Assembly (NCBI RefSeq): GCF_000337375.1
Contig: NZ_AOJG01000009.1
Coordinates: 16,620-80,619, forward strand
Direction: 5' to 3'
DNA length: 64,000 bases
Origin: Halorubrum lipolyticum DSM 21995
Lineage (GTDB): Archaea > Halobacteriota > Halobacteria > Halobacteriales > Haloferacaceae
The position numbers were made by a program, and so were the translations under genes. This document shows, piece after piece, positions 38,785 to 63,440 of the stretch. Each line of letters begins with the position of its first letter. Positions within the stretch are counted from its first letter, which is position 1. The notes under the pieces were generated by a model that worked only from the letters and a program-made list of their open reading frames with translations, was not told the DNA's origin and did no database searches.

Positions 38785-38906
38785 CGCGGTTTGTCGGGGG
38801 GTCGGTCAGGGTCGAACGTGCGATAGCTCGACAGCGTTTGACGGTCGGCTCGTGGAGTGTTTGAGATCGGCTCGTGGGGTTTTGACGGTTGTTTCGTTGA
38901 GTCCGG

Positions 38907-39048
38907 ACACCCCTCGTTTCGTCTGTTCTCGTCGCTTCAGTCTGTGGTGGATCCTTCTCGCTTGACTCACACCCCTCATTTCGTCTGTTCTTGTTCAGCC
39001 AGAGGGTCCTCTCTCTCAGTCATCGACACCCCTCGTTTCGTCTGTTCT
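38907..39048 (-). repeat. Left ORB triplet
   Basis: Copies at 38907-38929, 38969-38991 and 39026-39048. The top strand reads ACACCCCTCGTTTCGTC..., so the G-string is on the minus strand. Copies 1 and 3 are identical; copy 2 has one change (CTCATTTC). The last copy ends 16 bp from the orc1 stop codon. Confidence 0.9.
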
Positions 39049-39064
39049 TCCGTTTGAAAACTGA

Positions 39065-40261
39065 CTACGGCTGATTCTCGATCGACTCGCGCGTCTCCAA
39101 GATGATTTCGGGGTCCAACGCGAGCTCGTATCGGTAGTGGACGCCGCCCGCACGCCCTTCGTTCTGTTCGGTCCGTTCGAGAAACCCGAGCATCGTGAGA
39201 TCCGCGAGGTGGTTTTGGATGCTCTTTAGCGTGGTCAGTGGATCGTGACCCCACTCTCGTGCGATCCGTTCGTACACCGCCTGAATCTCTTTAGAGCGTG
39301 CGGGAACGTCTCCGTTCACTTCGATCTGTGCGAGCGATTCTAAGATGAGCTGCCCGTGCATGGTCTGGTCGCGCAACTTGTCTTGCACGCGACCTCGCTG
39401 AACGCGCGCCGCAGCCACTTCGATGTGCGCGTCGGTGATCGCCGCCGCTCCCTGTTCTTCAGCGACATCGCCTCCCTCGCGGAGGAGATCGATCGCCTGT
39501 CGTGCGCTCCCGGTGTCTTTCGCGGCCTTCGCCGCTGCGAGCCGAATCGCAGACTCTTCACACGCACCGTCAACGAGCGCCTTCTCGGCTCTGGCAGTGA
39601 GGATCGACTGGAGTTCGTCTGCGTCGTACGGCGAGAAGGCCAGTTCTTTTTCCATCAGCGTGTCCTTGACTTTCGGGCTCAACGACGAGCGAAACGTGTA
39701 GTTGTTACTGATCCCGATCACGCCGACACGTGCTGCATCGAGGTGGCCGTTGGCGCGTGCGCGAGGGAGTTCGTACAGGAGTGAATCCGGGTCAGAAAGG
39801 TGATCAATCTCGTCGAGAATGAACAGAAATGTGCCGCCGCGCGCTTCCATCTCATCGTACAACGTTTCGAGGGCGTGTGACGTCGAGAGACCGGTTTCCG
39901 GAAACGTCTCTCCCTCGTCTCCGCGGATGCTATTGATAAGCGATCGAACCGTTCTATACACGCTGTCGTCGTTGCAGTTCCGGAAGTGAACGTGGAGTTC
40001 CTCGGCGGCGTCGCGCCGTTTTACTTCCGTCTGGAGGGCACTCATCATGTACTCCGTGACGGCCGTCTTTCCGACCCCCGTTTTTCCATAAATGAACACG
40101 TTTGCCGGGTTTCGTCCGAAGAGCACGTCTTTGAGTGCGGATCGGTACGCATCGATCTCGTCGTCCCGCTCGACAATAACGTCTGGACGATACTCCTCCG
40201 AGAGAATAGATTTGTCCTCAAAGAGCGTCTCAGTCATCTCCGTGAAGAGATCGTCAGACAT
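39065..40261 (-). CDS. orc1: Orc1/Cdc6 replication initiator
   Basis: A 398-aa origin-binding AAA+ ATPase that should recognise the flanking ORBs and open the origin. Walker A is YGKTGVGKTAV (about residues 59-69), Walker B is LFILDEIDHL, and sensor 1 follows in VGVIGISNNYTF. A winged helix with the ORB-reading wing lies at the C-terminus (about 300-390, TMHGQLILESLAQIE ... LTTLKSIQNHLADLTMLGFLERTE). All ATPase motifs are canonical, unlike the paralogue at 6.1 kb. The TTTAAA box at 40293-40298 is about 32 nt upstream of the start. Confidence 0.96.
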   Translation of the reverse strand: MSDDLFTEMTETLFEDKSILSEEYRPDVIVERDDEIDAYRSALKDVLFGRNPANVFIYGKTGVGKTAVTEYMMSALQTEVKRRDAAEELHVHFRNCNDDSVYRTVRSLINSIRGDEGETFPETGLSTSHALETLYDEMEARGGTFLFILDEIDHLSDPDSLLYELPRARANGHLDAARVGVIGISNNYTFRSSLSPKVKDTLMEKELAFSPYDADELQSILTARAEKALVDGACEESAIRLAAAKAAKDTGSARQAIDLLREGGDVAEEQGAAAITDAHIEVAAARVQRGRVQDKLRDQTMHGQLILESLAQIEVNGDVPARSKEIQAVYERIAREWGHDPLTTLKSIQNHLADLTMLGFLERTEQNEGRAGGVHYRYELALDPEIILETRESIENQP

Positions 40262-40290
40262 TGTTGATATTCCGTGGAACGCGGCTCAGT

Positions 40291-40340
40291 TATTTAAAAG
40301 TATGGTTCGTTTGTTTCTTTTGTTTCGTTTGCTTTGTCGT
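40291..40340. promoter_or_regulatory. orc1 promoter and T-rich candidate unwinding element
   Basis: TATTTAAAAG (40291-40300) is a TATA box for orc1 on the minus strand. It adjoins a T-rich tract (40306-40340, runs such as TTTGTTTCTTTTGTTTCG) with strong pyrimidine bias. Lying between the initiator gene start and the right ORB triplet, it is the best candidate in this locus for a DNA unwinding element. Confidence 0.6.
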
Positions 40341-40380
40341 TCTGACTGAGTGGGAAGTCAGTACCCGAACTGTGCAGCCC

Positions 40381-40524
40381 ACAACAGACGAAACGAGGGG
40401 TGTGACCGATGGCTCAGCGTGGTACCCCACCGGCCTGCTGAGAGAACAGACGAAATGAGGGGTGTGAGCTCAACGTGTTCAGAGTCTCGGTCCCAACCCA
40501 GATAACAGACGAAATAAGGGGTGC
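40381..40524 (+). repeat. Right ORB triplet
   Basis: Copies at 40381-40403, 40443-40465 and 40502-40524, with the G-string on the plus strand, opposite to the left triplet. Cores read GACGAAACGAGGGGTGT, GACGAAATGAGGGGTGT and GACGAAATAAGGGGTGC, so the copies become more divergent away from the gene. Confidence 0.9.
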
Positions 40525-40603
40525 GTCTCCGTTCAGCGGGTGGCAAATCCATCGTCGAGTCGCTACTCCAGCGAGACTCATCCAGCCACACCCAACACAC
40601 CAG

Positions 40604-46355: not shown

Positions 46356-47630
46356 CTACAGCCGGACGACGTGATCGTCGTCACGATGACCAGTGACGTT
46401 TCGCGTATCAAACACCATCGATGTCTCGTCAACGATACGATCAATATCTAATGTCGAGTGGTCAGTGACCACAATAACACAGTCAGTGGCGTTGAGTCGC
46501 CCATCAGTGAGGGAGACGGACTCATAAGTCGCGTCGCCAACCTCGAGTTCCGGAACGTACGGATCGTGGTACTCTACGCCCGCACCCCAGCCGTCGAGTT
46601 CTGTGATAATATCTATGGCCGGAGACTCGCGCGTGTCGGAGACGTTCGGTTTGTAGGCAGCGCCGACGACGAGGATATCTGCGTTCGAGAGTGCGGTGCC
46701 GCGATCGTTGAGTTGTCGGACGACGCGTTGAACGACGTGTCGGGGCATTTCGCGGTTGACGGTGTCCGCGAGGTCGATGAAACGCGTATCAACGTCGTGT
46801 TCATTGGCCTTCCAAGAAAGGTAAAACGGGTCGATGGGGATACAGTGGCCGCCCAGTCCCGGTCCGGGGTAGAACGGCATGAAGCCGAACGGCTTCGTCT
46901 CGGCGGCGTCGATGGCGTCCCAGATATCGACGTCGAGTTCGTGAGCAATTTGTGCGAGTTCGTTGATCAGGCCAATGTTGACTGCGCGGAACGTGTTCTC
47001 AAGGAGTTTGACAAGCTCGGCCTCAGTCGCGGAGTCGACGCGCACGACCTCATCGAACACGGGATCGTACAGTGCTTGCGCGCGGTCGCCGCACTCGTCG
47101 GTGACGCCGCCGAGGACTTTCGGAATGTCTGTCGGGCCGTACTCCTCGTTTCCGGGATCGATGCGCTCGGGAGAAAACGCGAGATAGATATCTTCACCGA
47201 CGACTGCGCCATTTTCCGCGAACACGTCCGTGAGAGCATCCTCTGTGGCGCCGGGGTAAACGGTACTCTCGAGAACGACCGTACAGCCGTCCGCAATGAC
47301 GGGCGCGAGACGCTCGGCGGCATCGAGAACGAAGGACAGGTCGGGCGTGTCGGTCTTGCGGAGGGGCGTCGGCACACAGATGGAGACTCCCTCAGCGTCG
47401 CTCAGGAGGTCGTAGTCGGTCGTAAATGTGAGTCCCTCGTTCGTCGCCGCTTGGACTGTCTCGTCGGTAACGTCGTTGACGGTCGATTGGCCACTACGGA
47501 GGCGGTCAATCTTGTCACCGTCGATGTCGACGCCGACGACGTCGTAGCCGGCGTCGTGCATCGCCAGCGCCAGCGGTAGCCCCACGTAGCCGAGGCCGAC
47601 GACGCCAACGCGCGTCTGCTCGTCTTCCAT
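46356..47630 (-). CDS. UDP-N-acetylglucosamine 6-dehydrogenase
   Basis: A 424-aa nucleotide-sugar dehydrogenase of the WbpA/TviB class, oxidising UDP-GlcNAc to UDP-GlcNAc-uronate with two NAD. It has GLGYVGLPLALAM (Rossmann), AFSPERIDPG and KLLENTFRAVNI. The catalytic block ETKPFGFMPFYPGPGLGGHC contains the active Cys, followed by IPIDPFYLSWKA. The C-terminal domain has GAAYKPNVSDTRESPA. It is clearly distinct from AglM in this window. The start MEDEQTRVGV at 47630 is preferred over an upstream ATG. Confidence 0.9.
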   Translation of the reverse strand: MEDEQTRVGVVGLGYVGLPLALAMHDAGYDVVGVDIDGDKIDRLRSGQSTVNDVTDETVQAATNEGLTFTTDYDLLSDAEGVSICVPTPLRKTDTPDLSFVLDAAERLAPVIADGCTVVLESTVYPGATEDALTDVFAENGAVVGEDIYLAFSPERIDPGNEEYGPTDIPKVLGGVTDECGDRAQALYDPVFDEVVRVDSATEAELVKLLENTFRAVNIGLINELAQIAHELDVDIWDAIDAAETKPFGFMPFYPGPGLGGHCIPIDPFYLSWKANEHDVDTRFIDLADTVNREMPRHVVQRVVRQLNDRGTALSNADILVVGAAYKPNVSDTRESPAIDIITELDGWGAGVEYHDPYVPELEVGDATYESVSLTDGRLNATDCVIVVTDHSTLDIDRIVDETSMVFDTRNVTGHRDDDHVVRL

Positions 47631-47730
47631 GTACGTCGCCAAACACGACACAGTGGTTTCAGCATGTCGTTACTCGAACAGCCAGCAGTCGGGCGAATGA
47701 TAAACGGGGCTTAAGTCCCCGAGGGGTGTC

Positions 47731-47737
47731 GTCGGAG
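47731..47737 (+). promoter_or_regulatory. Shine-Dalgarno site of the family-4 glycosyltransferase gene
   Basis: GGAGGTG lies 12 nt before the ATG at 47750, an unusually full ribosome-binding site for this genome. It is preceded by GGGCTTAAGTCCCC at about 47704-47718, an inverted repeat (GGG..CCC) around a TTAA box. Confidence 0.5.
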
Positions 47738-47749
47738 GTGTGAACGTCG

Positions 47750-48898
47750 ATGACCGGTAGCGAGCGACCGCGGGTCTTCCACCTGATCACCCGACTGTTG
47801 AAGGGGGGTGCGGAGGCGAAAACAATCGCGACCGTGTGCGGCCTTGACGACTACGCGTTCACCGTCGGGTACGGGTCGGAGTACGACTCTGACCAGGTTG
47901 ATCGGTTAGAACGGGAGGGAATCGCAACGAAACAGTTCCCACTGATCCGGCACTACAATCCCGTGACGACGGTGCCGGCGGTCCTGTCGCTGGCGCGATA
48001 CCTCCGGCGGGAGGAGTTCGATATCGTCCACACACACAGCACGGAAGCCGGAATTATCGGACGGTTCGCTGCGGCACTCGCGGGCGTCCCGACCATCGTA
48101 CACACGGTACACGGCGTCCCGTTTGCCGACGATCGGAGCGCCTTCCTAAATCGATTCGTGCTCGCGTGCGAGCGGCAGGCGGCGAGCTATACGGACCGCA
48201 TCGTCACGAACGCGGACGTCATCGCCGACGACTACTTAGAGCGCGGGATTGGGCGGCGAGACCAATACACGACCGTCTACAGCGGCGTAGATCTGGATGC
48301 GTTCGCAGACGCCGAGCCCGCGGACGATCTCCCCGGGGAGCGGCCGCGCATTGTTATGGTTGGGCGGCTCGCGGACGGCAAAGGCTACGAGGTGCTGCTC
48401 GATGCCGTCGAATCACTGGATAGCTTCGAAGGGTCGGTGTGTATCGTCGGGGACGGCCCGTTGTACGAATCGCTCACGACGGAGATCGAGGACCGCGAGC
48501 TGGCCGACCAAGTGTGTCTCACAGGCTTTCGAGACGATATCCCGTGCGTACTCGCAGCGAGCGACGTACTCGTACTACCGTCGTTCCGGGAAGGGACACC
48601 TCGGGTCATCACAGAGGCGATGGCGAGTGGGCTGCCAGTCGTCGCTACCGACATTGCGGGAATCCCGGAGCAGATCGAGGACAGTGAAAACGGGTACCTG
48701 ATTCAGACGGGGGATTCCGAAGCGTTAGCTAACCGGTTGGAAACGTTGCTAGCTGACGCGGAGCTACGTGAGCAGATGGGTCGTCATGGACTGGAGCGTG
48801 CTAATCGATTTTCCGTTCCGACGATGGTTGAAGAGTTGGACAGAGTGTATCGGGAATTGGTTGGCGAGCAAGTCGGCAGCACGGGCTCAAACGTCTAG
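47750..48898 (+). CDS. Glycosyltransferase, family 4
   Basis: A 382-aa GT-B enzyme that adds a sugar to a lipid-linked glycan on the cytoplasmic face. The N-terminal domain has LITRLLKGGAEAKT and HTHSTEAGIIGRFAAALAGV. The C-terminal donor domain has MVGRLADGKGYEVLLDA, VIGDGPLYE-type VGDGPLYESL and the retaining signature SFREGTPRVITEAMASGLPV, followed by VATDIAGIPE. It is divergent from the dehydrogenase gene and convergent with the polytopic protein gene (9-bp gap). Confidence 0.92.
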   Translation: MTGSERPRVFHLITRLLKGGAEAKTIATVCGLDDYAFTVGYGSEYDSDQVDRLEREGIATKQFPLIRHYNPVTTVPAVLSLARYLRREEFDIVHTHSTEAGIIGRFAAALAGVPTIVHTVHGVPFADDRSAFLNRFVLACERQAASYTDRIVTNADVIADDYLERGIGRRDQYTTVYSGVDLDAFADAEPADDLPGERPRIVMVGRLADGKGYEVLLDAVESLDSFEGSVCIVGDGPLYESLTTEIEDRELADQVCLTGFRDDIPCVLAASDVLVLPSFREGTPRVITEAMASGLPVVATDIAGIPEQIEDSENGYLIQTGDSEALANRLETLLADAELREQMGRHGLERANRFSVPTMVEELDRVYRELVGEQVGSTGSNV

Positions 48899-48907
48899 TC
48901 TGGTGCT

Positions 48908-50122
48908 TCAGTCAGTCCCAGAGTTCAACGCTTGCGTACTGGTTGCAGAGTCGTCACTCCACCACTGAAACGGCCACGCGAATCGCACGTGTTCGCTAAC
49001 ACCAATGCCTCCGAACAAGAAAATCACCCAGATGAACATCTGTCGGTGGCGCATTCCTGTCCCGTAATTCACAGTACCAACACCGTACAGAACGACGGCG
49101 ACGCAGAGTCCGACGAGGAGCCCGACCGTTGCGGGTGAGTTCTTCTGACCAAGCGATCGAACGCCCCACACCGCTGCAACGGTGAAGGCGATGTTGATCA
49201 AGCCCTCGATACCGACGAGCAGGTCTGGAATCGTCTCGATCATCCACGGGAACGGGGCGTACAGGAAATACACGGCACCGACCCAACTGAAGGCGGTCAG
49301 CTCGACCACCGTCTGTGGGATAACATCCGGTAGATAGACGGTTCGACCGCTAGCTCTCACTTCACGGGTGTACGCCAAGAACTCGATCCCGTCTCGAATG
49401 ACGGGAAGTGAGAGTACGAACGCGACGGGAGATAGCGAGGCAGCGAGCGCGACCGAACGGCGCGATAGATACCCCGAATTCACAGCGTGGACCGCTAGCG
49501 CCGCCGCGATCGCCGCGACAATGATGATAACGTTGTCATCGCGCTGTAACAGCGAGACGTGTAACACGACGGCGGCGAGAGCGTAGGACAGTAGTCTCGA
49601 ACGCCGATGGGAGGGTAGCAGTAGGAGTCGTGCCGCAGTGGTGATTCCAAACAGGACGATGGCTTCTCGGAGTAGCGTGCTCTGAACTGCGACGATGCTG
49701 GGGTAGAACGTCATCGGAAGAGCGGCGACGACGCCGGCTTGGTGAGAGTGATAGTACCGGGCGATAAGATAGACGTTGTAGACGGCGAACGCCCCGAGAA
49801 GCGCATTTCCGAGGCGGGCATAGAAGCCACTCGGGCCGGGAAGCATCCAGAACGGTGCCAAGAAGGATCCCCAGAGAGCGTAGGTATCCGAAGATGCGAG
49901 GGGAACGAGTAGTTGAGACAGATCTATCGAGCTTGATGTGTACTGGTACGGAGTGCCCTCTCTGAGGCCGCGAGCAATCGTCTCTGCGGTGTTGCCAAAG
50001 CCAACTGCGTCTCCTGTCGAATCTGGGTTGAGTGTGGTGAGCGTCGTCACGACAGATGCGATACCACGAACTACGAACGCGACAATGAAGATTGTAACTG
50101 CCTGTAATGTATTTGTTCTCAT
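48908..50122 (-). CDS. Polytopic membrane protein (GT-C or polymerase-like)
   Basis: About 404 aa with roughly ten membrane helices. After the first helix, an extracytoplasmic loop carries STGDAVGFGNTAETIARGLREG, an arrangement like the catalytic first loop of dolichyl-phosphate-mannose-type GT-C transferases (ArnT/GT39). A Wzy-type polymerase is the alternative. An ATG at 50173 would add 17 residues; I favour 50122 because hydrophobicity starts there. Its place between glycosyltransferases supports a role in glycan polymerisation or transfer. Confidence 0.7.
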   Translation of the reverse strand: MRTNTLQAVTIFIVAFVVRGIASVVTTLTTLNPDSTGDAVGFGNTAETIARGLREGTPYQYTSSSIDLSQLLVPLASSDTYALWGSFLAPFWMLPGPSGFYARLGNALLGAFAVYNVYLIARYYHSHQAGVVAALPMTFYPSIVAVQSTLLREAIVLFGITTAARLLLLPSHRRSRLLSYALAAVVLHVSLLQRDDNVIIIVAAIAAALAVHAVNSGYLSRRSVALAASLSPVAFVLSLPVIRDGIEFLAYTREVRASGRTVYLPDVIPQTVVELTAFSWVGAVYFLYAPFPWMIETIPDLLVGIEGLINIAFTVAAVWGVRSLGQKNSPATVGLLVGLCVAVVLYGVGTVNYGTGMRHRQMFIWVIFLFGGIGVSEHVRFAWPFQWWSDDSATSTQALNSGTD

Positions 50123-50241
50123 TTTCCAAAATGTCTCTTGGCTGAATTCGTATGTATAGACCACACGAACCATTCATCGTAGATAATAGATGTGGAATTC
50201 CAAAACATGATGTGGATAACTAGATCTAGACCGGTTTCTGT

Positions 50242-51138
50242 CTAGACATGGATGGCGGATTTTGTGAACTTAGCTATATCATAACCTAATCCGAAAACCT
50301 GTCTAAAGTTGGCTGGTTTAGATTGTCTCAAGTATTTAAATCCAGATTCAAAATCTCCCTCGGAAATGTAATACCTCGCTAAGATAAAATTATGATATTT
50401 TCGGACATCGTATCCTTCAGTTTCTAGATACTGAATTTCATCTTGAAAAGATTCAAACAACTTCTTCTTAGCCTCAGCAGTAGTATCCGCTGATGGGCGA
50501 GACGATTCATGTAACCTGACCAAGGTTTGGTCTACATAGCCGATCTTTCCTTCGCTTGCCAACCGAATAGTAAATTCAATATCCTGATTTCTTTCAAAAC
50601 TCTCATCGAATCCATTAATCGATTCAACAACATCTCTCTTTGCTACAATTGTTGATCCACCATGAATAAATCCCGATAGGGTTAGTAACCCTTTGATAAT
50701 TTCTTTTTGACCCTCGTGCTTTGCATCGTGACTCAGTATCTCTGAAATAAATTTTATTATCTTAGAATCTCGCTCAGTGGTCGTACGACAGTAATTTGCG
50801 ACCCAGTCATCTGAACGGGACTGAAGTTGAGAAATTTGTTTCTCGAGTTTTTCCGGATACCATTCATCATCTGAATCGAGAAGTGCGATATAAGTGCCCT
50901 GAGCGGACCTGATCCCCGTATTTCTAGCTGCACTTCCATTACGATTCTCACTATGTCTTATATACTCAATTCTGTCATCGTCGTACGAATTGACCACTTC
51001 TTGAGTCGAATCAGTCGACGCATCATCCACAATAATCAGTTCAAAATTTCTGAATGTCTGATTCAGAACACTCTCTATCGAGCGCGGGAGTACTTCAGAC
51101 CGATTGTAGGTGGGAATAATAACGCTAACTGCTACCAT
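50242..51138 (-). CDS. Glycosyltransferase, family 2
   Basis: A 298-aa soluble GT-A enzyme: VSVIIPTYNRSEVLPRSIES, IIVDDASTDST, RNTGIRSAQG and the metal-binding ALLDSDDEW. It has no C-terminal membrane helices, so it is probably a peripheral transferase that adds single sugars. The codon use is strikingly A/T-rich compared with the core genes, which marks the start of the low-GC segment. Confidence 0.9.
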   Translation of the reverse strand: MVAVSVIIPTYNRSEVLPRSIESVLNQTFRNFELIIVDDASTDSTQEVVNSYDDDRIEYIRHSENRNGSAARNTGIRSAQGTYIALLDSDDEWYPEKLEKQISQLQSRSDDWVANYCRTTTERDSKIIKFISEILSHDAKHEGQKEIIKGLLTLSGFIHGGSTIVAKRDVVESINGFDESFERNQDIEFTIRLASEGKIGYVDQTLVRLHESSRPSADTTAEAKKKLFESFQDEIQYLETEGYDVRKYHNFILARYYISEGDFESGFKYLRQSKPANFRQVFGLGYDIAKFTKSAIHV

Positions 51139-51474
51139 ATGTTCCCATACTACGTGGAGTGATATTAAGTGCTTTCAAGTAAAGTAGTCTTAATGACTCA
51201 TTACGTCCGACACGGAAATTTGAAATGCCGTCGAACGTGTCTTTTGGGAGATAAAACGGTCAACACCATCGTTCGCAAATAGTTTTAGCAATGTCGCGCT
51301 CAAGACACCTCAAAACAGGCTTGAAGCCGTCGCCGCCTACCACAATATACACAAATTTAAATCGAGCCCTGCAAGCAGACGTATGTGAGTTCGATATTTG
51401 CCCGATACGTACCTGCCTTCGTGAACTGATGGTGGTGCCACCGGTGTGTTCCGAGGATCACGACATTTACCACT
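51139..51474. other. AT-rich gap without a supported gene
   Basis: These 336 bp lie between two minus-strand glycan genes. Short open stretches exist on both strands, including one on the minus strand at about 51190-51345 interrupted by a stop, but none has recognisable family features. Confidence 0.5.
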
Positions 51475-52881
51475 TCACTTGCGGTGTTCGTCATGGATCC
51501 GCTCCAACTCTTCTAGAATATTTGCCACCGAATCTGACTTGAAGAACCTCTCGCGGTCGAACTGACTCGTGTCGACCGAGCCCATCTGTCCGGCAAGGTC
51601 GTCCACGTCTTCGATCATCGACGCTGCTCCGTCTTCTACGAGCGGCTGGAGCACGTCCGCGCCGTCCGCCTCGAACACGAACGTCTCTAGATCGAAGCAG
51701 AGCCCCTCGTAGACGGCGGTCGATCCGACCCCGACCTGCGCGCTCGACTCCGCGAAGAGCCGATAGAGCGGTGGTTCGGACTCGTCGATCACCCGCATGT
51801 CCGATTCCGCGAGCCAAGGGTATTCGTCTTCCCATCGATCGTACTCCCCAGGGTGAAGCTTGTAGACGACTTCGTGCTCGATCCGGTCGTCCTCGTGTAC
51901 CTTGAGAGCGAACTGTGAGAGCTCGCGTCCGATCGTCCCCTGGGAGATGAAGAGGAGCTGTTTGGCGGGTTCGACGTCGTCGTACTGGTTGAGTCGGTCT
52001 TCCAGGTACGGATAGCCGACGGAGATAACGCGTTCGTCTGGGATCGGAAATCTGAGGTTCTCATTCCAGAACTCACCCCAAGTCAGTACGTAGTCCGGAA
52101 ACATGACTTTGGTCTCGTCTTCGGGATACGCGTAACCGAAGTGAGTATCGTAGATCACGCCGTGTTGCAGCTCAACGACCGGGATCTCCTTCCGCTTACA
52201 CGCCTCGATAAACGTCTCTCTTCCGTAGGAGACGACGACGATCGCGACTTCCGGATCTACTCTATCCAGCAGTCGCTCGTACAGCGGGAGGTTCGTGTTG
52301 CGGACGTGAAGATTATGCCTCACTTTGGAAACGAGATCGATGTCAGCGTCAAACCGCCGTTCGATCTCCGCTTCGGCTTCCCGGAGCCGAGAAATCACCT
52401 CGTCGGGGATCGAAGGCTGGCGCAGGCCGATCTGCCGTTGGATGGTTCCCCCGTACTCTACGAGCTCGAGATACCGGAGGTTGTTGGTCTTTGCAGGGCT
52501 CCGATGCGATAGGAGATGCGGCATCTCCATGTGGACGTAATCGAGTTCCTCCTTCTCGTGGATCGGGTCGCAGTAGATGTCCCACCAATAGCCGTCTTCT
52601 TCGAGCTTTCGTCGTGGATGGCCGGCAAAGAGATAGTCGTGTTCGCCGGCGAGATACGGGTTTCTGTGGACAGCGTTCTTCAGCCACAGTGAGAAGCCGC
52701 GGAGGTAGTCCTTCAGTCCGTCTTCGCGCTGCGTGTGAGGTTGTCCTTGTCCCTGCTGACTAGCAATCTCTCGGGCGACTTTGAAGCGTATTCGTTCCCA
52801 GATGGGTAGATGATCGACGTGAATTGAAAACAGATCTAGCTCACTTTCGAATGATTTGTATTCCTCTGGGTCTGTCAACAT
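51475..52881 (-). CDS. GT-B-like surface polysaccharide glycosyltransferase, family unclear
   Basis: A 468-aa soluble protein. The C-terminal half has features of capsule-type GT-B enzymes (CDP-glycerol or sialyl/KDO-transferase-like): VVELQHGVIYDTHFGYAYPE, then PDYVLTWGEFW, VGYPYLEDRL, VYKLHPGEYDRWEDEYPW and GVGSTAVYEGLCFDLETFVF. The N-terminal half is less conserved and partly helical. The HPGE segment is the likely donor-phosphate site. Its location next to the pyruvyltransferase and nonulosonate genes would fit a transferase for acidic sugars, but this is inference. Confidence 0.72.
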   Translation of the reverse strand: MLTDPEEYKSFESELDLFSIHVDHLPIWERIRFKVAREIASQQGQGQPHTQREDGLKDYLRGFSLWLKNAVHRNPYLAGEHDYLFAGHPRRKLEEDGYWWDIYCDPIHEKEELDYVHMEMPHLLSHRSPAKTNNLRYLELVEYGGTIQRQIGLRQPSIPDEVISRLREAEAEIERRFDADIDLVSKVRHNLHVRNTNLPLYERLLDRVDPEVAIVVVSYGRETFIEACKRKEIPVVELQHGVIYDTHFGYAYPEDETKVMFPDYVLTWGEFWNENLRFPIPDERVISVGYPYLEDRLNQYDDVEPAKQLLFISQGTIGRELSQFALKVHEDDRIEHEVVYKLHPGEYDRWEDEYPWLAESDMRVIDESEPPLYRLFAESSAQVGVGSTAVYEGLCFDLETFVFEADGADVLQPLVEDGAASMIEDVDDLAGQMGSVDTSQFDRERFFKSDSVANILEELERIHDEHRK

Positions 52882-53070
52882 TGCTGGTTTGGGTTCAATC
52901 TGAACCAGATATGTATATGTATTTTGAAAATACGATCAATATAGGTATTAGATTCACGTGTGGGAGTTGTCTGCTGTTCGGGTAATCTTCTCTTGACTGA
53001 GTAGCTTGTGAATCAGATCTAGTTGATTCTTCGAAATTCCTTTGTAGAGTCCTCACACATGGGGTCATAG

Positions 53071-54126
53071 ATGAAGTATACCTTGTTTCACGGGGCAAAA
53101 AAGAACGCCGGCGATTACCTGATTCGTAATCGAGCCAAACAGCTGCTATTCGAGTATACTGATATCGACGAAAATGAGTTACTCGAACTGGATATGGTTC
53201 GAAAGAATATTTCCGAAGAACAACTCTCTCAGGTTCGAGAAACAGATGCCGTCATAATCGCTGGAGGGCCAGCGTATGGGTCAGGGGACTTTGCGGATAT
53301 TTACCCTTCACTACCAGACGTATTGGACGCGGGGATTCCCGTCTTCCCTCTTGGTCCGGGATGGAAGGGGACAGACGAAGACGAATTCCGATTCACAGAT
53401 GAGTCACTCTCTCTCATAGAACGTATTCACGAACGGATCGAGTTTTCTGGAGTTCGAGATCTCCCAACGAAACGTGTACTGCAGAAACACGGGATATCGA
53501 ACGTCGAATTAGTTGGGTGTCCCGCATGGTATGACCTTGGTTCGCTTGGAAAGTCGTTTGAGAAACCGTCCACAGTCGGGAGTATTGCGATCTCTACTGC
53601 AGTTCCGCGTTCACGGTACTACCGCAAGCAATTCCGCCATCTCCTTCGACGGGTGAGTGAAGAGTACCCAGATGCTGATCTGTACTGCTCGTTCCATCGA
53701 GGAATAACCTACGACGATCATACGCCCTTTATACGCTCTCTTCATCTCAAACGGTTCAAGCGAGTTGCCAGCAAACATGGGTATACAATACTCAATCCGG
53801 CATACGAACCTGAAAAATTAGAGCTGTACAGAGATGTTGATATTCACATTGGATATCGGGTTCACGGCCATATTTATTTCCTTGCGATGCGCCATCCAAG
53901 TTATCTGTTCCAAGTAGATGGTCGCGGTACCGGTGTATCTGAATCGCTTTCAGCTCCAAGCGATGTAGTTGCGTTTGGACGTGACAATTATAAAGAGCCT
54001 ATTGAGGAGCTACTCAATAATGTCCAGCAGGACGTTACAGATGGATTTACTAGATTCGATAGTGTTTCTGAAGCTATTGATAATACACATGAAAATATGA
54101 TGAGACTGATCGATACTCTTCCGTGA
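53071..54126 (+). CDS. Polysaccharide pyruvyltransferase family protein
   Basis: A 351-aa GT-B-fold enzyme expected to move pyruvate from phosphoenolpyruvate onto a glycan sugar as a ketal. Hallmarks: the N-terminal FHGAKKNAGDYLI, VIIAGGPAYGSGDF, VFPLGPGWKG, SGVRDLPTKRVLQKHG and the C-terminal DIHIGYRVHGHIYFLAMRHP with its conserved Arg-His pair. It is plus-strand, divergent from the GT-B-like gene, in the low-GC segment. Pyruvylated sugars would add negative charge to the surface glycan. Confidence 0.88.
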   Translation: MKYTLFHGAKKNAGDYLIRNRAKQLLFEYTDIDENELLELDMVRKNISEEQLSQVRETDAVIIAGGPAYGSGDFADIYPSLPDVLDAGIPVFPLGPGWKGTDEDEFRFTDESLSLIERIHERIEFSGVRDLPTKRVLQKHGISNVELVGCPAWYDLGSLGKSFEKPSTVGSIAISTAVPRSRYYRKQFRHLLRRVSEEYPDADLYCSFHRGITYDDHTPFIRSLHLKRFKRVASKHGYTILNPAYEPEKLELYRDVDIHIGYRVHGHIYFLAMRHPSYLFQVDGRGTGVSESLSAPSDVVAFGRDNYKEPIEELLNNVQQDVTDGFTRFDSVSEAIDNTHENMMRLIDTLP

Positions 54127-54133
54127 TTTTTTT
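54127..54133 (+). terminator. T-tract directly after the pyruvyltransferase gene
   Basis: Seven T residues begin on the base after the stop codon. Archaeal transcription ends at such U-tracts without needing a hairpin. The next gene has its own AT-rich upstream region. Confidence 0.5.
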
Positions 54134-54240
54134 GCTGTACCACATATCTGTACAATTCAAATAGCGGTCATAAAAATATAAATAGAGGTACTCTATTCCA
54201 CAAACCTCTACTGTATGAGGCCTTAATATAGAATTGACAC

Positions 54241-55170
54241 ATGGCAAAACGCACTATGGTTACAGGATGCGGTGGGTTTCTTGGTAGTCATCTTGTCGAT
54301 GAACTTTTGCAGAGTGGAAGAGAGGTAATCGGAATTGATAATTTTAGTAGTGGACAAAAAGAGAACATCAGTGAATATACTGATCATAATAATTTCAAAT
54401 TGTTAAATAGAAATGTTCGTCTACCAGATTCATTACCTACTGTGGATGAAATATATCACCTAGCTTCACAAGCTTCACCAGCTGACTTTACAGAATATCC
54501 CGTTGAGATTGCACTTGTAAACACACAAGGCACACGAAATATGCTGGACCACGCTCTAGCCTGTGATGCAAAGATGGTTTTTGCCAGCACAAGTGAAGTA
54601 TACGGAGATCCTGAAGTGCACCCACAAACAGAATCATATAATGGGAATGTGAATATTCGTGGAGTTAGAGGTTGTTACGACGAATCTAAACGGTTTGGAG
54701 AAACTCTAACGGAGGCATATTACCGAAAGCATAATGTTGATGTCCGAACAGTTAGGATATTTAATACATACGGTCCTAAAATGCGCCCGGATGATGGACG
54801 TGTTGTCCCAACATTTATTGATCAGGCATTATCTGGTAATGACTTGACTGTTTATGGGGATGGTTCACAAACTCGAAGTTTTTGTTATGTTGATGATTTA
54901 ATACATGGTTTGACACAAGTAATGGAGCAGTCTGAATTAGATCATCGAGTGTACAACCTTGGTAATGAGAATGAGATAACAATAAAGACATTGGCGAAAA
55001 AAATATTAGACATTGTCAATACCAATAGTAGTATTGTATATAAACCTCTGCCTGAAGACGACCCAGAGAGACGAAAGCCAAATATTACACGAATTCAAAA
55101 AGAATTGGGGTGGGAACCAAACATCTCACTTGAAAATGGTCTCAAGACTACAATCGACTCATATAAATAA
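54241..55170 (+). CDS. UDP-glucuronate decarboxylase-like SDR (UDP-xylose synthase)
   Basis: A 309-aa extended [19 protein letters not shown] at the N-terminus. Then come the diagnostic UXS segments [40 protein letters not shown] and [17 protein letters not shown] (catalytic Tyr-Lys), and [21 protein letters not shown]. These match UDP-xylose synthases better than dTDP-glucose dehydratases. The likely reaction is UDP-glucuronate to UDP-xylose, using the product of AglM. It lies 20 bp before a GT61 gene, so both are likely one operon. Confidence 0.86.
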
Positions 55171-55190
55171 ATAATTGCTGACATATTATA

Positions 55191-56444
55191 ATGTATGATA
55201 TAATTAAGAGGATCTTGAAAGAGTATCAATTGAACGGGCTACGGTCATTAGTCGATAGTGGGGTTAGTGAAGTTTCAATCTTTTTTAAAAATAAAAAACA
55301 CGAGATATTTTCCCGATTTTTAGTTTTCATATTGAAAGCTAGCGGTAAGACAACAACCGCAGATGAAAAATGTGAAAATAAGTATTTGTATGCGACTAGT
55401 GAGAAAATTAATGTAACAACAAATGGACAGAGTTCTCACCCTGACATTCAATCAGCGATAGGTGATTGGAGATCTGATCCGCGACACTTGTATTTCTTGA
55501 ATCAAGTCCGACTTGTCGGAAGATATGGTCTCGGTTTCTCCTCAGAAGGTGAATTAATCTGGGACACTGTTGCAAACAGCCAATATATGCTCAATTCAAT
55601 TTTACAACGAATGATAAGTGATATGGGTGTTATTAGAACCTACAACATTATTTATAATGCAATAGTTAGCAAACACATTGACATTCGAAATTCAGAATAT
55701 GATTATTCACTTTCTATGATGAATACTAATTCAAATAATTATTATCACTGGACAGTGGAGTATTTAGCACGTCTTCGCGGCGTAGATTCGTGTCCCGAAG
55801 TCTCCAATGATGAGGTTGAATTATTACTCCTTTCATCAGCTCCACAATATGTCAAAGAGTCGCTTAGCATTCTCGGATTCAAATCTTATCAAACATGGAA
55901 CGAAGATATTGAGCAAATTGACCGACTCATAGTACCAGATCATACATTTCGTTCACGGCATCATGAGTTTGGAATAGCACCATCAGATTTAGAATGGGTG
56001 AGAAAAAAGATGTTAAACAATTTGTCAACAAAGTCTAATATCAAAAATAAAAGAATATATATCTCTCGAGAAGATTCTAAAAATGGTAGGGAGGTAATAA
56101 ATGATCAAGAATTAAACGCTATTTTGAACAACTTCGGGTTTCAAAAATACAGATTATCTGAATTGTCTGTTAGAGATCAAATCGAACTATTTTCCAATGC
56201 AGAAATTGTTATAGGTCCTCATGGGGCTGGATTTGGAAATCTAATATATTCAACATCATCAACAACAGTTGTTGAACTGTATGGAGAAGAGCTACCACAA
56301 GGGAAATTCTTTGTAATGCTAGCGAACGAGATCGGGTCTGATTATTATAACATACGCTGTCAAGTCGATGATAATAATATATATGTTCCAACTAATAGGG
56401 TTGAAAAGTTATTAGACAATATTCTAACAAAACAGATACGGTAG
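55191..56444 (+). CDS. Glycosyltransferase, family 61
   Basis: A 417-aa protein. The N-terminal ~100 residues are basic and variable. The catalytic region has NSNNYYHWTVEYLARLRGVD, then DRLIVPDHTFRSRHHEFG, RIYISREDSKNGREV and the GT61 hallmark IVIGPHGAGFGNLIYS. Plant and fungal GT61 enzymes include beta-1,2-xylosyltransferases and arabinosyltransferases. Following directly after a UDP-xylose-synthase-like gene, it is a good candidate archaeal xylosyltransferase. It is very A/T-rich. Confidence 0.85.
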   Translation: MYDIIKRILKEYQLNGLRSLVDSGVSEVSIFFKNKKHEIFSRFLVFILKASGKTTTADEKCENKYLYATSEKINVTTNGQSSHPDIQSAIGDWRSDPRHLYFLNQVRLVGRYGLGFSSEGELIWDTVANSQYMLNSILQRMISDMGVIRTYNIIYNAIVSKHIDIRNSEYDYSLSMMNTNSNNYYHWTVEYLARLRGVDSCPEVSNDEVELLLLSSAPQYVKESLSILGFKSYQTWNEDIEQIDRLIVPDHTFRSRHHEFGIAPSDLEWVRKKMLNNLSTKSNIKNKRIYISREDSKNGREVINDQELNAILNNFGFQKYRLSELSVRDQIELFSNAEIVIGPHGAGFGNLIYSTSSTTVVELYGEELPQGKFFVMLANEIGSDYYNIRCQVDDNNIYVPTNRVEKLLDNILTKQIR

Positions 56445-56599
56445 TCTTGGTTAGTCTCTAAGAGCTGTTGTTGCCATTTCTGGTAAACAGATCCTCCACC
56501 TGAGAGTGTTTATAATCCAACCACCTTATTTGGTTAAACTACTCAGTACAACCCTAATTGTGTAATCAGTCTTATAATATTGTCTTGGCATTATTATTA

Positions 56600-57676
56600 T
56601 TATAATACTTTGTCCCAAGTTATTATTTCGTCTTTCCTAACCTTCGATTGTGTAGAGCGTCCAATAAGGATCTCAATCATTTCTGGAGAGATACCTGTTC
56701 CAGGCCGCTTAATGGAGATGTCCTCACGAGTGATTTTTTCACCCTCATCAAGTTTCTTAGCTGCCACAAGACTTCTACGGGCATGTTTGCGACTGTCATG
56801 TTCTACATTGATTGGTTTTTTTCTAAAAATACCTGTAGTTGTGTTTAAAATGCGCAAGTTTTCACAAAATATTTGTGTATCTCTCTCGTCCATCGCGTGG
56901 TAGTGATCATTTCCTTTCAATGATTTATCAAGTGTGAAGTGCTTTTCAATAACTTGTGCACCATGAAATATTGAATTTAGAAGGGTATTCATATTCTCGT
57001 CCGGTGGCACATGATCTGAATATCCGGCTGTATACTCTGGATACACCTGATCGAGATGGTGGATCATTCCCAGATTTGCGTTCTCAGGGTCTGTTGGATA
57101 TTGGAGAATACAATGAAGCAAAGCTAGCTCTGGGTCAGGGGTTTCCTCTTCGATCACCTGCACCGCATCATCAATTTCACCGATCGTGCTCGCGCCTGTT
57201 GATAACAGGATGGGCTTCTCTTTTTGAGCGATATGACGAATAAGTGGATGATTCGTGATGTCTGCACTGGCAATCTTGTACGCAGGCACGAGATCCTCAA
57301 GATAATCTACGGCCTCGAAATCAAATGGTGTCGAAAGGAAATCGATATCGTGATTCTCATGTGTCCATCTAGCGATCTCCTCGAATTCGTCTCTCCCGAA
57401 GTCATCATACTGCTCAAACAGTTCGTACTGTGTCTCGGTACTCTCCTCTTCAGTGTCCCAGTATGCGGGTGACTGTTTTGATGCGAGGCGATCCGCAGAG
57501 TACGATTGGAACTTCACGGCGTCCACACCCGCCTCCGCAGCTTCTGTAACCATCTTTTTTGCGGCGTCAAGCGGAGGTATCTCGTGCTTCTCTGCGATAT
57601 CAAAATGATTGACCCCGATTTCTGCGATCAGATAGGGGTCTTTCGGGTCATCAATAGTTGTACCGTTAATTTTCAT
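56600..57676 (-). CDS. Nonulosonic acid synthase (NeuB family)
   Basis: A 358-aa enzyme condensing a hexosamine derivative with phosphoenolpyruvate to form a nine-carbon acidic sugar (sialic, legionaminic or pseudaminic type). The N-terminal TIM barrel has YLIAEIGVNHF, AVKFQSYSADRL, FLSTPFDFEAVDYLEDL, KIASADITNHPLI, LSTGASTIGEI and IEKHFTLDKSLKGNDHYHAM. The C-terminal SAF/antifreeze-like domain has RSLVAAKKLDEGEKITREDI and RPGTGISPEMI. The start MKINGTTIDD is preferred; it lies within the end of the upstream fusion gene (11-bp overlap). Confidence 0.9.
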   Translation of the reverse strand: MKINGTTIDDPKDPYLIAEIGVNHFDIAEKHEIPPLDAAKKMVTEAAEAGVDAVKFQSYSADRLASKQSPAYWDTEEESTETQYELFEQYDDFGRDEFEEIARWTHENHDIDFLSTPFDFEAVDYLEDLVPAYKIASADITNHPLIRHIAQKEKPILLSTGASTIGEIDDAVQVIEEETPDPELALLHCILQYPTDPENANLGMIHHLDQVYPEYTAGYSDHVPPDENMNTLLNSIFHGAQVIEKHFTLDKSLKGNDHYHAMDERDTQIFCENLRILNTTTGIFRKKPINVEHDSRKHARRSLVAAKKLDEGEKITREDISIKRPGTGISPEMIEILIGRSTQSKVRKDEIITWDKVL

Positions 57677-59303
57677 TGGCTTCCTCGAACATGATTTTTT
57701 TGATGCGTTCGATACCATTTGCAATGTCGTGTGTGGAGAGTTCGTTTCTCATCATCTCTCGTTGTTCTCGATTAGAACAGTAGTCTTCTACCGCTGCCTG
57801 TAGGTTCTCTTCGGATACGTAGTTTGCGTGGCCGAGCGAAAGGACACCCCGCGAGATGTGGGCGAATGGGTGTTTTTGCTCTCGAGCATTTTGTGCGATT
57901 GATATCATCGGCAGATTCAGCGAAGCGGCCTCATAGAGCGTCCTCCCATTAGATGTGATGAGAAGGTCCGCCTGTTCCATGTGTTTCGCCATGGAGTTAA
58001 TATTCTGACTAACCGAGATGCGGCCAGGTGATGAGAACTTTTCGATTATCGTATCGAGATGATCCCTTTCGGTATATCCTAACCCGAGCACCACATCAAT
58101 TTCGTATTCTTCGTTAAGAGCAGAAAGTGCACGAAGAGCTTTCGCGGTCAGGTCATTTTCGTCGGTTCCACCGAAAGAGATCATGATTCTTTCGACGGAC
58201 GGGATCTCTTCCAACGGGGTAGCGTACCGGAACTCGCTTCTGAGACAAAAGTACTCAGATCCGAAATAGTGGTTTTCCGGTGGTGTTGAATGTTCGTATA
58301 GAGCGTTAATGATCGCATCTGCGTACTTGGAACCGACACCGAGGTCCTCGAAGTTCACGATCCGAGAGTCCAATTCTGCGAGCGATTGCATATACTCTAC
58401 GCTTGTGTCCAGAACGTCATTGACAACGACGTCTGGAACATCTGTTCTGATATATTCCAGTATGGCCTGTTCGCCCTCGAACACGCGATATGCATAATTG
58501 CTTTCTGCGAGTTTATCAATGGCAAGCTCGTCTTTTTTTTCAACGGCGAAGAGAACATCATGCTCAAAGATGTGATCTGCGAGTGTGATTCCTCGGTATA
58601 CGTGACCAGTACCTGTATTACCGTTCCCAATTAATCGGTATACGAGCTGCTTCCGTTGCAGAACACTCTCTGCAATTTTCCAATCCTCGTACGTGTCAAT
58701 GTCGATTCCCTCTCTCCGATCCACTTCGTAGAAAGACGGAGAATCACAGATTCGTCGGCCGTCTTCTACGATCGATCTGTGTGAGAGAAACACGCCGATC
58801 TCTTCGTAGATCGGTTCCATCATCTGACGGTTCTTCCTATCCGCAGAAACTGAATTATACTCGCCGTTTGTTTTTTTCCAATACTGATGAGTGCTGTCTC
58901 GAATGTAAATTACGCTATCTGAATCAGTTTGTAATCCTTGCTGGATCCCTTCTTCCACTGATGTATGTGTAATTAGTGGAACCGTCGGTTGGAAACAGAG
59001 TACATATTCGAAGTTCCCCTCAGATTCGGCATACGCATGCTGGATTACAGGAGCAAGAGGAACCTCATCTGTGGCGAGTTCTTTGGGTCGGTGAATAATT
59101 TCATCAGCACCGTACTCTCGTCCGATCTGGGCGATTTCGTCGCTATCCGTCGTAAGAACGGTGTGATCTATTTCAGAGGTGTTTTTGCTGGCCTCTATCG
59201 CGTGTGCAATCAGAGGTTTACCATTGAGTTCTCTGATATTTTTCCGTGGGATCCCCTTGGATCCCTTCCTCGCGGGGATAACGGATACCACGTTCTCTGC
59301 CAT
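57666..59303 (-). CDS. Fusion of CMP-nonulosonate synthetase and PseG-like nucleotide-sugar hydrolase
   Basis: A 545-aa two-domain protein. Residues about 5-225 are a CMP-sialate synthetase (VVSVIPARKGSKGIPRKNIR, VLTTDSDEIAQIGREYGADE, LCFQPTVPLITHTSVEEGI), ending VDRREGIDIDTYEDWKIAE. Residues about 228-545 are a GT-B-like PseG domain (IGNGNTGTGHVYRGITLADH, VNDVLDTSVEYM, IMISFGGTDENDLTAKAL, QADLLITSNGRTLYEAASLN). In pseudaminic acid synthesis PseG removes UDP before NeuB/PseI acts and PseF adds CMP after it, so the fusion joins steps on both sides of its partner NeuB, which overlaps its 3' end. Confidence 0.88.
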   Translation of the reverse strand: MAENVVSVIPARKGSKGIPRKNIRELNGKPLIAHAIEASKNTSEIDHTVLTTDSDEIAQIGREYGADEIIHRPKELATDEVPLAPVIQHAYAESEGNFEYVLCFQPTVPLITHTSVEEGIQQGLQTDSDSVIYIRDSTHQYWKKTNGEYNSVSADRKNRQMMEPIYEEIGVFLSHRSIVEDGRRICDSPSFYEVDRREGIDIDTYEDWKIAESVLQRKQLVYRLIGNGNTGTGHVYRGITLADHIFEHDVLFAVEKKDELAIDKLAESNYAYRVFEGEQAILEYIRTDVPDVVVNDVLDTSVEYMQSLAELDSRIVNFEDLGVGSKYADAIINALYEHSTPPENHYFGSEYFCLRSEFRYATPLEEIPSVERIMISFGGTDENDLTAKALRALSALNEEYEIDVVLGLGYTERDHLDTIIEKFSSPGRISVSQNINSMAKHMEQADLLITSNGRTLYEAASLNLPMISIAQNAREQKHPFAHISRGVLSLGHANYVSEENLQAAVEDYCSNREQREMMRNELSTHDIANGIERIKKIMFEEANEN

Positions 59304-59405
59304 CACTGTCGGTCTCTCCTTACCCGGCGAGTAAAACAGTTCTTGTTTGAATATCAGTTGGAATCGATGTCGAATTAACGAACACAGAGTTGCTACCCTG
59401 CAAAC

Positions 59406-61211
59406 CTATTGGCTCGCCTGAATTCCGTACAGCTCCGCGTACTTCCCGCCTTCCGCCACGAGTTCGTCGTGTCGTCCCGTCTCCGTGACTCGACCCTCCT
59501 CGATCGTGTAAATCCGGTCCGCATTCTTCACCGTCGACAGACGATGTGCGATGGTAACGATCGCGTAGTCTCGGTCCATTTCCTCGATCGATCGCTGGAC
59601 CTGCTTTTCCAGATTGGAGTCGAGGTCGCTCGTTGCCTCGTCGAGGATCAACACGTCAGCGTCCTCGAGCAGTGCCCGCGCGAGCGCAACGCGCTGTTGT
59701 TGCCCACCGGACAATCGAACTCCATCATCACCCAACAACGAGTCGTACCCGTTCGGAAGCTCGTCGATGAACTCGTCGACCTTCGCGATCGAACACACAC
59801 GATCGAGTTCTCCCCCCGAGACTTCTCGATTCCCGAGCGTCAAATTATACCGCAGCGTATCGTTGAAGATGAACGGGTCCTGTCTGACCATCGAGAGACG
59901 GTCGCGCCACTCCGCGATGTCCATCTCGTCGATCGGGATCCCGTTCGCTCTGATCTCGCCGGAATCGACAGGATACAGTCGAGCGAGGAGCGAGACGATC
60001 GTCGATTTCCCCGCCCCCGACTGTCCGACGAAGCCGACGAACTCGCCCTTCTCGACGGTAAAGTCGATCCCGCGAAGCACCTCTTCCTCGTCGTCGTACG
60101 AGAAGTGAACGTCGTCGAACTCGACCTCTCGGATTTCTTCAGGGGCTTCCCGACTCGAGCCGGTCGGTTCGTTGTACGTCGCCAGATCGTCTGTGAACTG
60201 GATAGTTCGGACGAGGTGCGGGAGGTTGTTCTCGACTTTGTAGTACAGCGTGTTCACTCTGCTCGCCTTCGGTCCGAGTCGGAACATCGCGAAGAGGAAA
60301 ACCCCGAGTTCACCGACCGAGAGGTTCGCAAACGTTAGTGCAAGGTAGATGAGAACGAACACCGACACCGCGACGACGAGGTTATAGAAGTTGTCGATCG
60401 CAGCCTCGTTACGCCGAAGAACGATACGCGAACGAGTGAACTGTTCGATCGCCTCAGTAAAGTCCTCGAATAGCTCGTCAGCGAGTCCGAAGATCCGGAC
60501 GTCGCGAATTCCCTGTGTTCCGGCTTGCGCGGCTTCTTGTCTCATCTCGTTCGCCTCGGCCACCTTCTCGCCGACATCGTACCCAGAATCGATAACCCGG
60601 CGGAAGAAGACCGAGAAGCCTCCGAGGACGATGCCCGTGATGATCGTCAGGAATGGCGCGATCACCAGCGCGACGGCGAAGTACACGCCGGCAAGGAATG
60701 CTTCTTGGGTAAACTGGATTGAGTATTGAATTACCCGGCTGGCGTAGTTCGTCTGCGTGACGATCGCGTTCAAAATGTCGTCGGAACCCTCTCTATCGAA
60801 ATACTCCACGCGGGCGTTCAACGCGTTTCGAAACGCCCGGGTCTGGAGATCTCTAATGTAGTAGGTCCGGAGTGCCTCGCGGAACCACGCAACAGCGAAA
60901 GTGGTTGTATACCGTGCGACCATTACGCCAGATACACCGATCACGACGTATCCCAGTGTGAATGGGATCCCGATCGCTTGGTAGGCCGTAACGAACACCG
61001 CCAACAGCCCTTCGGCCTCTGCAGCGGGGTCCTGGAGCTGGACGAGTTCAACGATTGGCAGAATGAAACTCAGACCGACACCCTCGAGCACCGCTGCGAC
61101 GATTCCAAGCACGACGACGGCTGCAGTGTACGTCGGATTATACTTCGCAACGTCACGGAGGGCATCAAGTTTCGCCCGTCTGGAAACCGGTTCTGAATCT
61201 GGCGATGACAT
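59406..61211 (-). CDS. ABC transporter, fused permease and ATPase (lipid-linked glycan flippase type)
   Basis: A 601-aa half-transporter of the MsbA/PglK type that probably moves lipid-linked glycans across the membrane. Six membrane helices occupy about residues 25-320. The ATPase has Walker A GFVGQSGAGKSTIV, the Q-loop MVRQDPFIFND, the signature RLSGGQQQRVALARAL and Walker B DVLILDEATSDLD with the H-loop IAHRLSTV. No Wzx flippase is seen in the island. Its GC content is higher than that of the preceding genes. Confidence 0.9.
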   Translation of the reverse strand: MSSPDSEPVSRRAKLDALRDVAKYNPTYTAAVVVLGIVAAVLEGVGLSFILPIVELVQLQDPAAEAEGLLAVFVTAYQAIGIPFTLGYVVIGVSGVMVARYTTTFAVAWFREALRTYYIRDLQTRAFRNALNARVEYFDREGSDDILNAIVTQTNYASRVIQYSIQFTQEAFLAGVYFAVALVIAPFLTIITGIVLGGFSVFFRRVIDSGYDVGEKVAEANEMRQEAAQAGTQGIRDVRIFGLADELFEDFTEAIEQFTRSRIVLRRNEAAIDNFYNLVVAVSVFVLIYLALTFANLSVGELGVFLFAMFRLGPKASRVNTLYYKVENNLPHLVRTIQFTDDLATYNEPTGSSREAPEEIREVEFDDVHFSYDDEEEVLRGIDFTVEKGEFVGFVGQSGAGKSTIVSLLARLYPVDSGEIRANGIPIDEMDIAEWRDRLSMVRQDPFIFNDTLRYNLTLGNREVSGGELDRVCSIAKVDEFIDELPNGYDSLLGDDGVRLSGGQQQRVALARALLEDADVLILDEATSDLDSNLEKQVQRSIEEMDRDYAIVTIAHRLSTVKNADRIYTIEEGRVTETGRHDELVAEGGKYAELYGIQASQ

Positions 61212-61447
61212 TGAGTTGCGTTACTCGTATTCCAGCAGCGATCCGAATAATGCCGTCGGTCTGAATCGGATGTGCTGTGCTGGCTCGTGAACACAGACGG
61301 CGGGGGTTTATCACCCACTTTCCGTGTACTGACGTCGTCGACTGCTAATTGGTTCAGTGAGGAAACACCGTAGGTTTCTGTCGAACAAATACGCTTTTCA
61401 CACAGGCACGATTTTCTCACAATAATGCGACTTTCGGGTGGTCCCCT

Positions 61448-62548: not shown

Positions 62549-62615
62549 TGGCCGCGCGTGGTCGCGCTCCACAGAACCTGTTCGCCAAAGGTGCTCTAAC
62601 AGAGGTGTCTCCGAG

Positions 62616-63281: not shown

Positions 63282-63440
63282 TCTAGAGAGACCTGCGAGA
63301 GCGCCACCGCTCTACGGTCAACCGCTCTACGGCCACGATCTGTACGCCCCGCGCGAAGAGAAATTCACACTCGCGAGACCCTCTCAGCAGAGCCGGCTTT
63401 ATGGTATCTCAAATTAAACAACCTCGGAAAGGACCCTCCT

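Follow-up and report, generated by a model that had tools for sequence, protein, structure and literature searches.

Anatomy of a candidate Halorubrum replication origin with ORB repeats on both flanks of its orc1/cdc6 gene

An orc1/cdc6 gene with ORB-like repeats beyond both its start and its stop codon raises the question of where replication would begin: on one side of the gene, on both sides, or across the whole segment that the repeats enclose. Such a gene lies in the window analysed here, a 64,000-nucleotide stretch on contig C9 of a 3.43-Mb, 41-contig Halorubrum genome (Table 1). An earlier note on this DNA had described three repeats per flank as mirror-image triplets, had regarded the position of the gene inside the bracket as exceptional, and had suggested that the initiator might load from both sides of its own gene or repress it when bound.

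Table 1. Positions of the observed, predicted and proposed features of the locus, in window coordinates.
Feature	Position	Strand	Remarks
Cluster of downstream ORBs, oriC2D-like; proposed element for initiator titration	38905..39048		anatomy compared with PMC3936714
Downstream ORB, outermost	38907..38927	-	21-bp motif
Downstream ORB, middle	38969..38989	-	21-bp motif
Downstream ORB nearest orc	39026..39046	-	18 bp past orc stop codon
orc1/cdc6 initiator gene	39065..40261	-	398 aa; TIGR02928, Cdc6_C, Cdc6_lid
Upstream intergenic segment, proposed origin proper	40262..40526		ORBs, AT-rich array and promoter
50-bp duplex of lowest stability in the locus	40286..40335		nearest-neighbour profile
orc TATA box (TTTTAAATA)	40291..40299	-	38 bp before ATG; consensus match, predicted
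Tandem 9-bp array of ORB cores lacking the G-string; candidate unwinding element and promoter operator	40304..40333	-	
Upstream ORB, innermost	40383..40403	+	121 bp from orc ATG
Upstream ORB, middle	40445..40465	+	21-bp motif
Upstream ORB, outermost, weakest (AACAGACGAAATAAGGGGTGCGT)	40504..40524	+	21-bp motif

The gene inside the bracket is a true orc1/cdc6, as had been assumed. Its product scores 422 bits against TIGR02928, for which the cut-off is 181, carries AAA_22, Cdc6_lid and Cdc6_C domains, and has relatives of solved structure in Sulfolobus Cdc6-1 (2qby) and an Aeropyrum protein (2v1u); the closest named relative by Orc is H. salsamenti (96%). All six repeats are likewise present, although the right-hand coordinates first given for them were about two bases early. 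Their consensus, AACAGACGAAAYGAGGGGTGT, consists of a core of the CGAAAC type and, after it, a G-string, the G-strings are directed outward from orc on either flank, and left and right copies form inverted repeats of 20–26 nt with 87–100% match. Six such sites are not a product of chance, because about 0.04 sites with at most one mismatch would be expected in the genome and six were found; besides these six, there are no sites at up to two mismatches in the 3.4-Mb genome.

The start-to-start spacings of 62/57 and 62/59 are as claimed, and the triplets do mirror one another in orientation, but the order of the spacings does not follow suit (57 then 62 outward from the gene on the downstream side, as against 62 then 59 on the upstream side). 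A conserved mirror spacing was also sought and rejected, since the spacings of relatives vary between 54 and over 300 bp, most being 54–66, and lack mirror symmetry. A segmental inverted duplication of one flank was rejected as well, since the likeness of left and right ends at the ORB edges or within a few bases of them. Beside the outermost downstream ORB lies a 22-bp tandem repeat (about GTTTGACGGTCGGCTCGTGGAGT; window 38836–38889), three copies of which are kept in H. lacusprofundi (L123 18600–18680).

The anatomy of the locus is conserved. Eighteen loci with an Orc at least 74% identical were examined, the window included, from Halorubrum (H. lacusprofundi among them), Halohasta, Halobellus, Haloquadratum and Natronocalculus, and ORBs stand on both flanks in every one, at one to four per flank, with at least one downstream ORB in 18 of 18. 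As a rule some 120 bp separate the ATG from the nearest upstream ORB, and 10–30 bp separate the stop codon from the first ORB beyond it. Orientation is nearly always outward, the exceptions being Natronocalculus, whose downstream flank also has inward copies, and one further Halorubrum (L011), which has one extra inward copy further upstream. The spacers are more diverged than the ORBs among these loci.

The repeat also keeps company with its initiator. In a survey of 59 genomes, 11 of which hold an Orc orthologue of at least 78% identity, clustered perfect ORBs occur in 11 of 11 orthologue-holding genomes and in no others, and a reversed control pattern occurs nowhere in the 59; perfect clusters are thus confined to genomes with this Orc, and repeat and initiator are therefore linked. 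Anatomy, conservation and initiator–ORB linkage are in this way directly supported, and there is support for the elements being ORBs, the gene their cognate initiator and the locus one with the anatomy of an origin, much as the earlier note had it. Most of the 59 relatives, many Halorubrum among them, lack this Orc. Of the 48 genomes without an orthologue, 45 have no perfect ORB and three have one or two stray copies (G014:C11:476498, G014:C23:422935, G016:C44:6165, G017:C100:18747). These copies, and two more at a locus that lacks a close orthologue (L060 4832 and 4927), are probably traces of a lost origin.

The position of the gene inside the bracket is not exceptional. Wu et al. (2012; PMC3528665) list some ten orc genes of haloarchaea, Hlac_1078 included, that have ORBs on both flanks, and 26 of 44 further haloarchaeal orc loci (∼60%) share at least four 12-mers in inverted order between the orc flanks, so that the two-sided layout, real and conserved, is of a published kind and ordinary for haloarchaea. 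Like the origins sought in that study, the locus encodes an Orc/Cdc6 homologue that exceeds 300 aa and has both AAA+ and winged-helix domains, and it has repeated ORB-like elements with a G-string, six in number, in the intergenic regions flanking orc. The study also looked for inverted ORBs around an AT-rich region; here full ORBs are inverted solely across the gene, and within the upstream region the opposite-orientation partners of the ORBs are 9-bp cores without a G-string. The H. lacusprofundi orthologue, at 1,077,250–1,078,446 on chromosome 1 (2,735,295 bp), has three ORBs on each side and encodes an Orc 96% identical. It comes after an STT3 gene, identified with aglB (Hlac_1062), and after the sugar-gene cluster reported as Hlac_1062–1075, and because of this position and the three ORBs per side it is very probably Hlac_1078, the tag being deduced from the order of the genes beside the aglB cluster. 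The Hlac_1078 origin, a prediction only in PMC3528665, resembles the window in having ORBs in both flanking intergenic regions.

A role for the downstream triplet is suggested by Haloarcula hispanica, where the oriC2-cdc6E locus likewise has origin ORBs ahead of the cdc6 gene and a cluster of ORBs right behind it (Wu et al. 2013; PMC3936714). The downstream cluster, oriC2D, shows no ARS activity, reduces that of oriC2 and can be removed only if oriC2 is also removed; its effect depends on ORB number, and initiator titration is probable (PMC3936714). In the window the first 160 bp after the stop codon likewise hold three ORBs, and since this anatomy matches oriC2D the upstream region is taken as the origin and the triplet as a sink. 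We accordingly consider it rather probable that the locus is a chromosomal, non-oriC1, orc1/cdc6-linked Halorubrum origin in which the upstream region is the origin proper and the downstream triplet an initiator sink, although three downstream ORBs are few against the 11 in 722 bp of oriC2D, which counts against this reading. Loading from both sides appears, by the same analogy, less likely than repression by a downstream cluster of the published kind, itself devoid of ARS activity (PMC3936714).

Identity with Haloarcula oriC2 itself is uncertain because the best Orc matches in probable Haloarcula genomes are only ∼42–46% identical, against the at least about 80% by which PMC3528665 delimits families such as oriC2-cdc6E, and cdc6E is probably not an orthologue of the window Orc. 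Such an identity was considered because, according to PMC3936714, H. lacusprofundi has a homologue of oriC2 with three ORBs downstream. Haloarchaeal oriC1 resembles the window in having ORBs of core and G-string, with G-strings directed outward around an AT-rich region adjoining orc, and the window ORB is similar to its oriC1 counterpart in H. lacusprofundi (TTCCACACGAAACGAAGGGGTGGGG), but oriC1 has another Orc, another ORB and another gene neighbourhood. Membership of the oriC1 family was rejected, the window Orc being ∼30–34% identical to the widely conserved Orc paralogues and missing from most of the 59 relatives.

The proposed working of the locus is as follows. The Orc1/Cdc6 protein would bind its own ORBs, and the origin proper would be laid out as three ORBs with outward G-strings, a spacer, the A/T-rich opposed 9-bp cores and the orc TATA box. 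Bound to the array, Orc could melt the A/T-rich stretch and could also limit its own synthesis by occluding the promoter, while the three ORBs past the stop codon would form an initiator sink that restrains firing. Of these steps we infer Orc binding, origin activity, the site of unwinding, autorepression and titration; on the Haloarcula analogy the downstream ORBs probably sequester initiator and restrain replication, and autorepression of orc through the cores that abut its promoter is a likely extra loop. In Escherichia coli an initiator sink, the datA locus, is combined with initiator sites, the boxes of the dnaA promoter, and the logic is as proposed for the window; proteins and sites are unrelated, and the likeness is one of analogy only. 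Given that the two-sided layout is kept in five genera with few ORBs (1–4 per side), the titration model should be easily testable in quantitative terms.

The T-rich tract ahead of the gene, which had been put forward as the unwinding element, is the best candidate for that role by predicted duplex stability, the least stable duplex of the locus being found there. This weak duplex stands between the start of orc and the nearest upstream ORB, nearly all orthologues have a weak stretch at the same place, and in the nearest-neighbour profiles of the window and its closest relatives the downstream ORB cluster has no comparably weak duplex. The 9-bp cores of the array are present as AGCAAACGA, AACAAAAGA and AACAAACGA in the window (TRF reports period 9 at 40306–40331) and in up to six copies in relatives. 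They run in the sense of the gene, opposite to the upstream ORBs, and reach as far as the TATA box. The array was found in 18 of 18 orthologues, and over the 18 loci the core matches number 56, compared with 4.7 expected from dinucleotide shuffles, and one in the other orientation. Within the upstream region alone, an AT-rich stretch is thus already surrounded by cores of either orientation; an inverted pair need therefore not span the gene, which itself need not belong to the origin core, and self-repression of orc, the second suggestion of the earlier note, stays plausible because the opposite cores abut the orc TATA box.

Other Orc families have an array of the same period in the same place with a core of their own, for example AACACTAGA, AACACTGGA and AACACTCGA in a Haloarcula plasmid. 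As other Orc-family sets had already been inspected, a test was fixed beforehand on an evenly spread selection of ∼16 orc loci from plasmids, covering positions −95 to −25 of the annotated start and lags 5–13. Lag 9 alone is in excess (0.375 vs 0.255 in the 16 orc loci), with a z of 8.7 that is somewhat inflated because two pairs of the 16 are near-duplicates, and 28 neighbouring non-orc genes, most of them from the same loci, show no lag-9 excess (z = 0.7). Since some ordinary ORBs are weakly 9-bp self-similar, part of the signal may come from an ORB that stands directly at the TATA box, with extra cores ahead of it. It is a tentative proposal, and one that we hold with less than even confidence, that non-oriC1 haloarchaeal orc/cdc6 genes carry tandem 9-bp cores of their own ORB immediately before the TATA box, inverted relative to the upstream ORBs, and that these cores would serve at once as unwinding element, initiator contacts and autoregulated promoter. 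No description of such a 9-bp core array was found in the openly searchable archaeal-origin literature, most subscription papers lying outside the search; such a device would recall the iterons of plasmids or the DnaA-trios of bacteria. The Orc1 of Aeropyrum has a preference for T-rich single strands within its AT-rich region (PMC8287685), and contact of Orc with the T-rich strand of the array would fit this preference. If the arrays do serve in unwinding or autorepression, they would add a general rule for the melting of DNA by archaeal initiators and for the control that these exert over their own level.

The use made of the origin was approached through cumulative GC skew, over 2.62 of 2.74 Mb of H. 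lacusprofundi chromosome 1 and, in the genome of the window, over contig C9 only. In H. lacusprofundi a strong peak near 1.53 Mb lies close to the rRNA-linked oriCb-type Orc, and the skew appears to turn near the sequence start, which is the site of oriC1-type ORBs. Near the present locus, the strongest turn on the 10-kb scale (1.068–1.070 Mb) falls ∼8–10 kb away, and at 40–80 kb there is nothing marked. The locus so tested adjoins a glycosylation gene cluster of atypical composition.

The origin may be a minor or dormant one, as some are in Haloferax mediterranei (PMC4595724), and by extension its ORBs could persist mainly to regulate orc expression, with replication starting elsewhere. The weakness of the skew signal would agree with a dormant or little-used origin, as would the known dormant origins of Haloferax mediterranei that retain intact ORBs (PMC4595724) and the many Halorubrum that lack this Orc entirely, but the ORB set, the AT-rich array and the Orc have been kept over several genera despite the divergence of the spacers, and we regard this explanation as unlikely.

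It is distinctly improbable that the entire 1.6-kb bracket is one origin, in which both triplets load helicase and the opposed, outward ORBs are the canonical inverted pair, orc being enclosed between the halves. The outward orientation is kept on both flanks across genera and recurs in the oriC1 ORB pair around its AT-rich region, yet opposite cores already stand beside the AT-rich stretch of the upstream region, the downstream cluster is without a weak duplex in the window and closest relatives, and the corresponding Haloarcula cluster is dispensable for ARS activity and inhibitory (PMC3936714). Two separate origins, one per side of the gene, would suit the Natronocalculus downstream flank with its ORBs in both orientations, but are very improbable in view of the window, where the downstream ORBs all share one orientation and have no AT-rich partner.

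The genome also encodes a sister Orc (59%), whose locus supports the origin-and-sink reading that we prefer. At this locus (L002, G000:C35:9349–13051) the sister gene is bracketed by repeats at 755–933 and 2294–2709, whose left half, AACAGACGAAA, is common with the window ORB and which have CGTACTCTC instead of the G-string half, a half-difference that, judged from sequence, appears to be a natural specificity switch. Two related initiators with sites alike in the left half and unlike in the right offer a natural test of origin discrimination. That the repeats are terminators or sites of another DNA-binding protein is scarcely credible: the downstream triplet does sit between the convergent genes orc and glmS, but the repeat clusters solely with this Orc and the sister Orc has its own variant on both flanks. 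A search for terminators or bacterial promoters found no excess of either in the region, and that reading was rejected.

In relatives the sister origin is often close to this locus. Its ORBs lie ∼200 bp further downstream in H. ezzemoulense (L045 7195–7600), an orc C-terminus-like remnant occupies its position in H. salsamenti (L043 7360–7450), and in H. lacusprofundi the sister orc gene is 7 kb off (L124 5281–6955). Elsewhere in the window, a stretch at about 47000–63500 has a GC content of 43–61%, compared with ∼69% over the rest of contig C9, and is possibly a genomic island.
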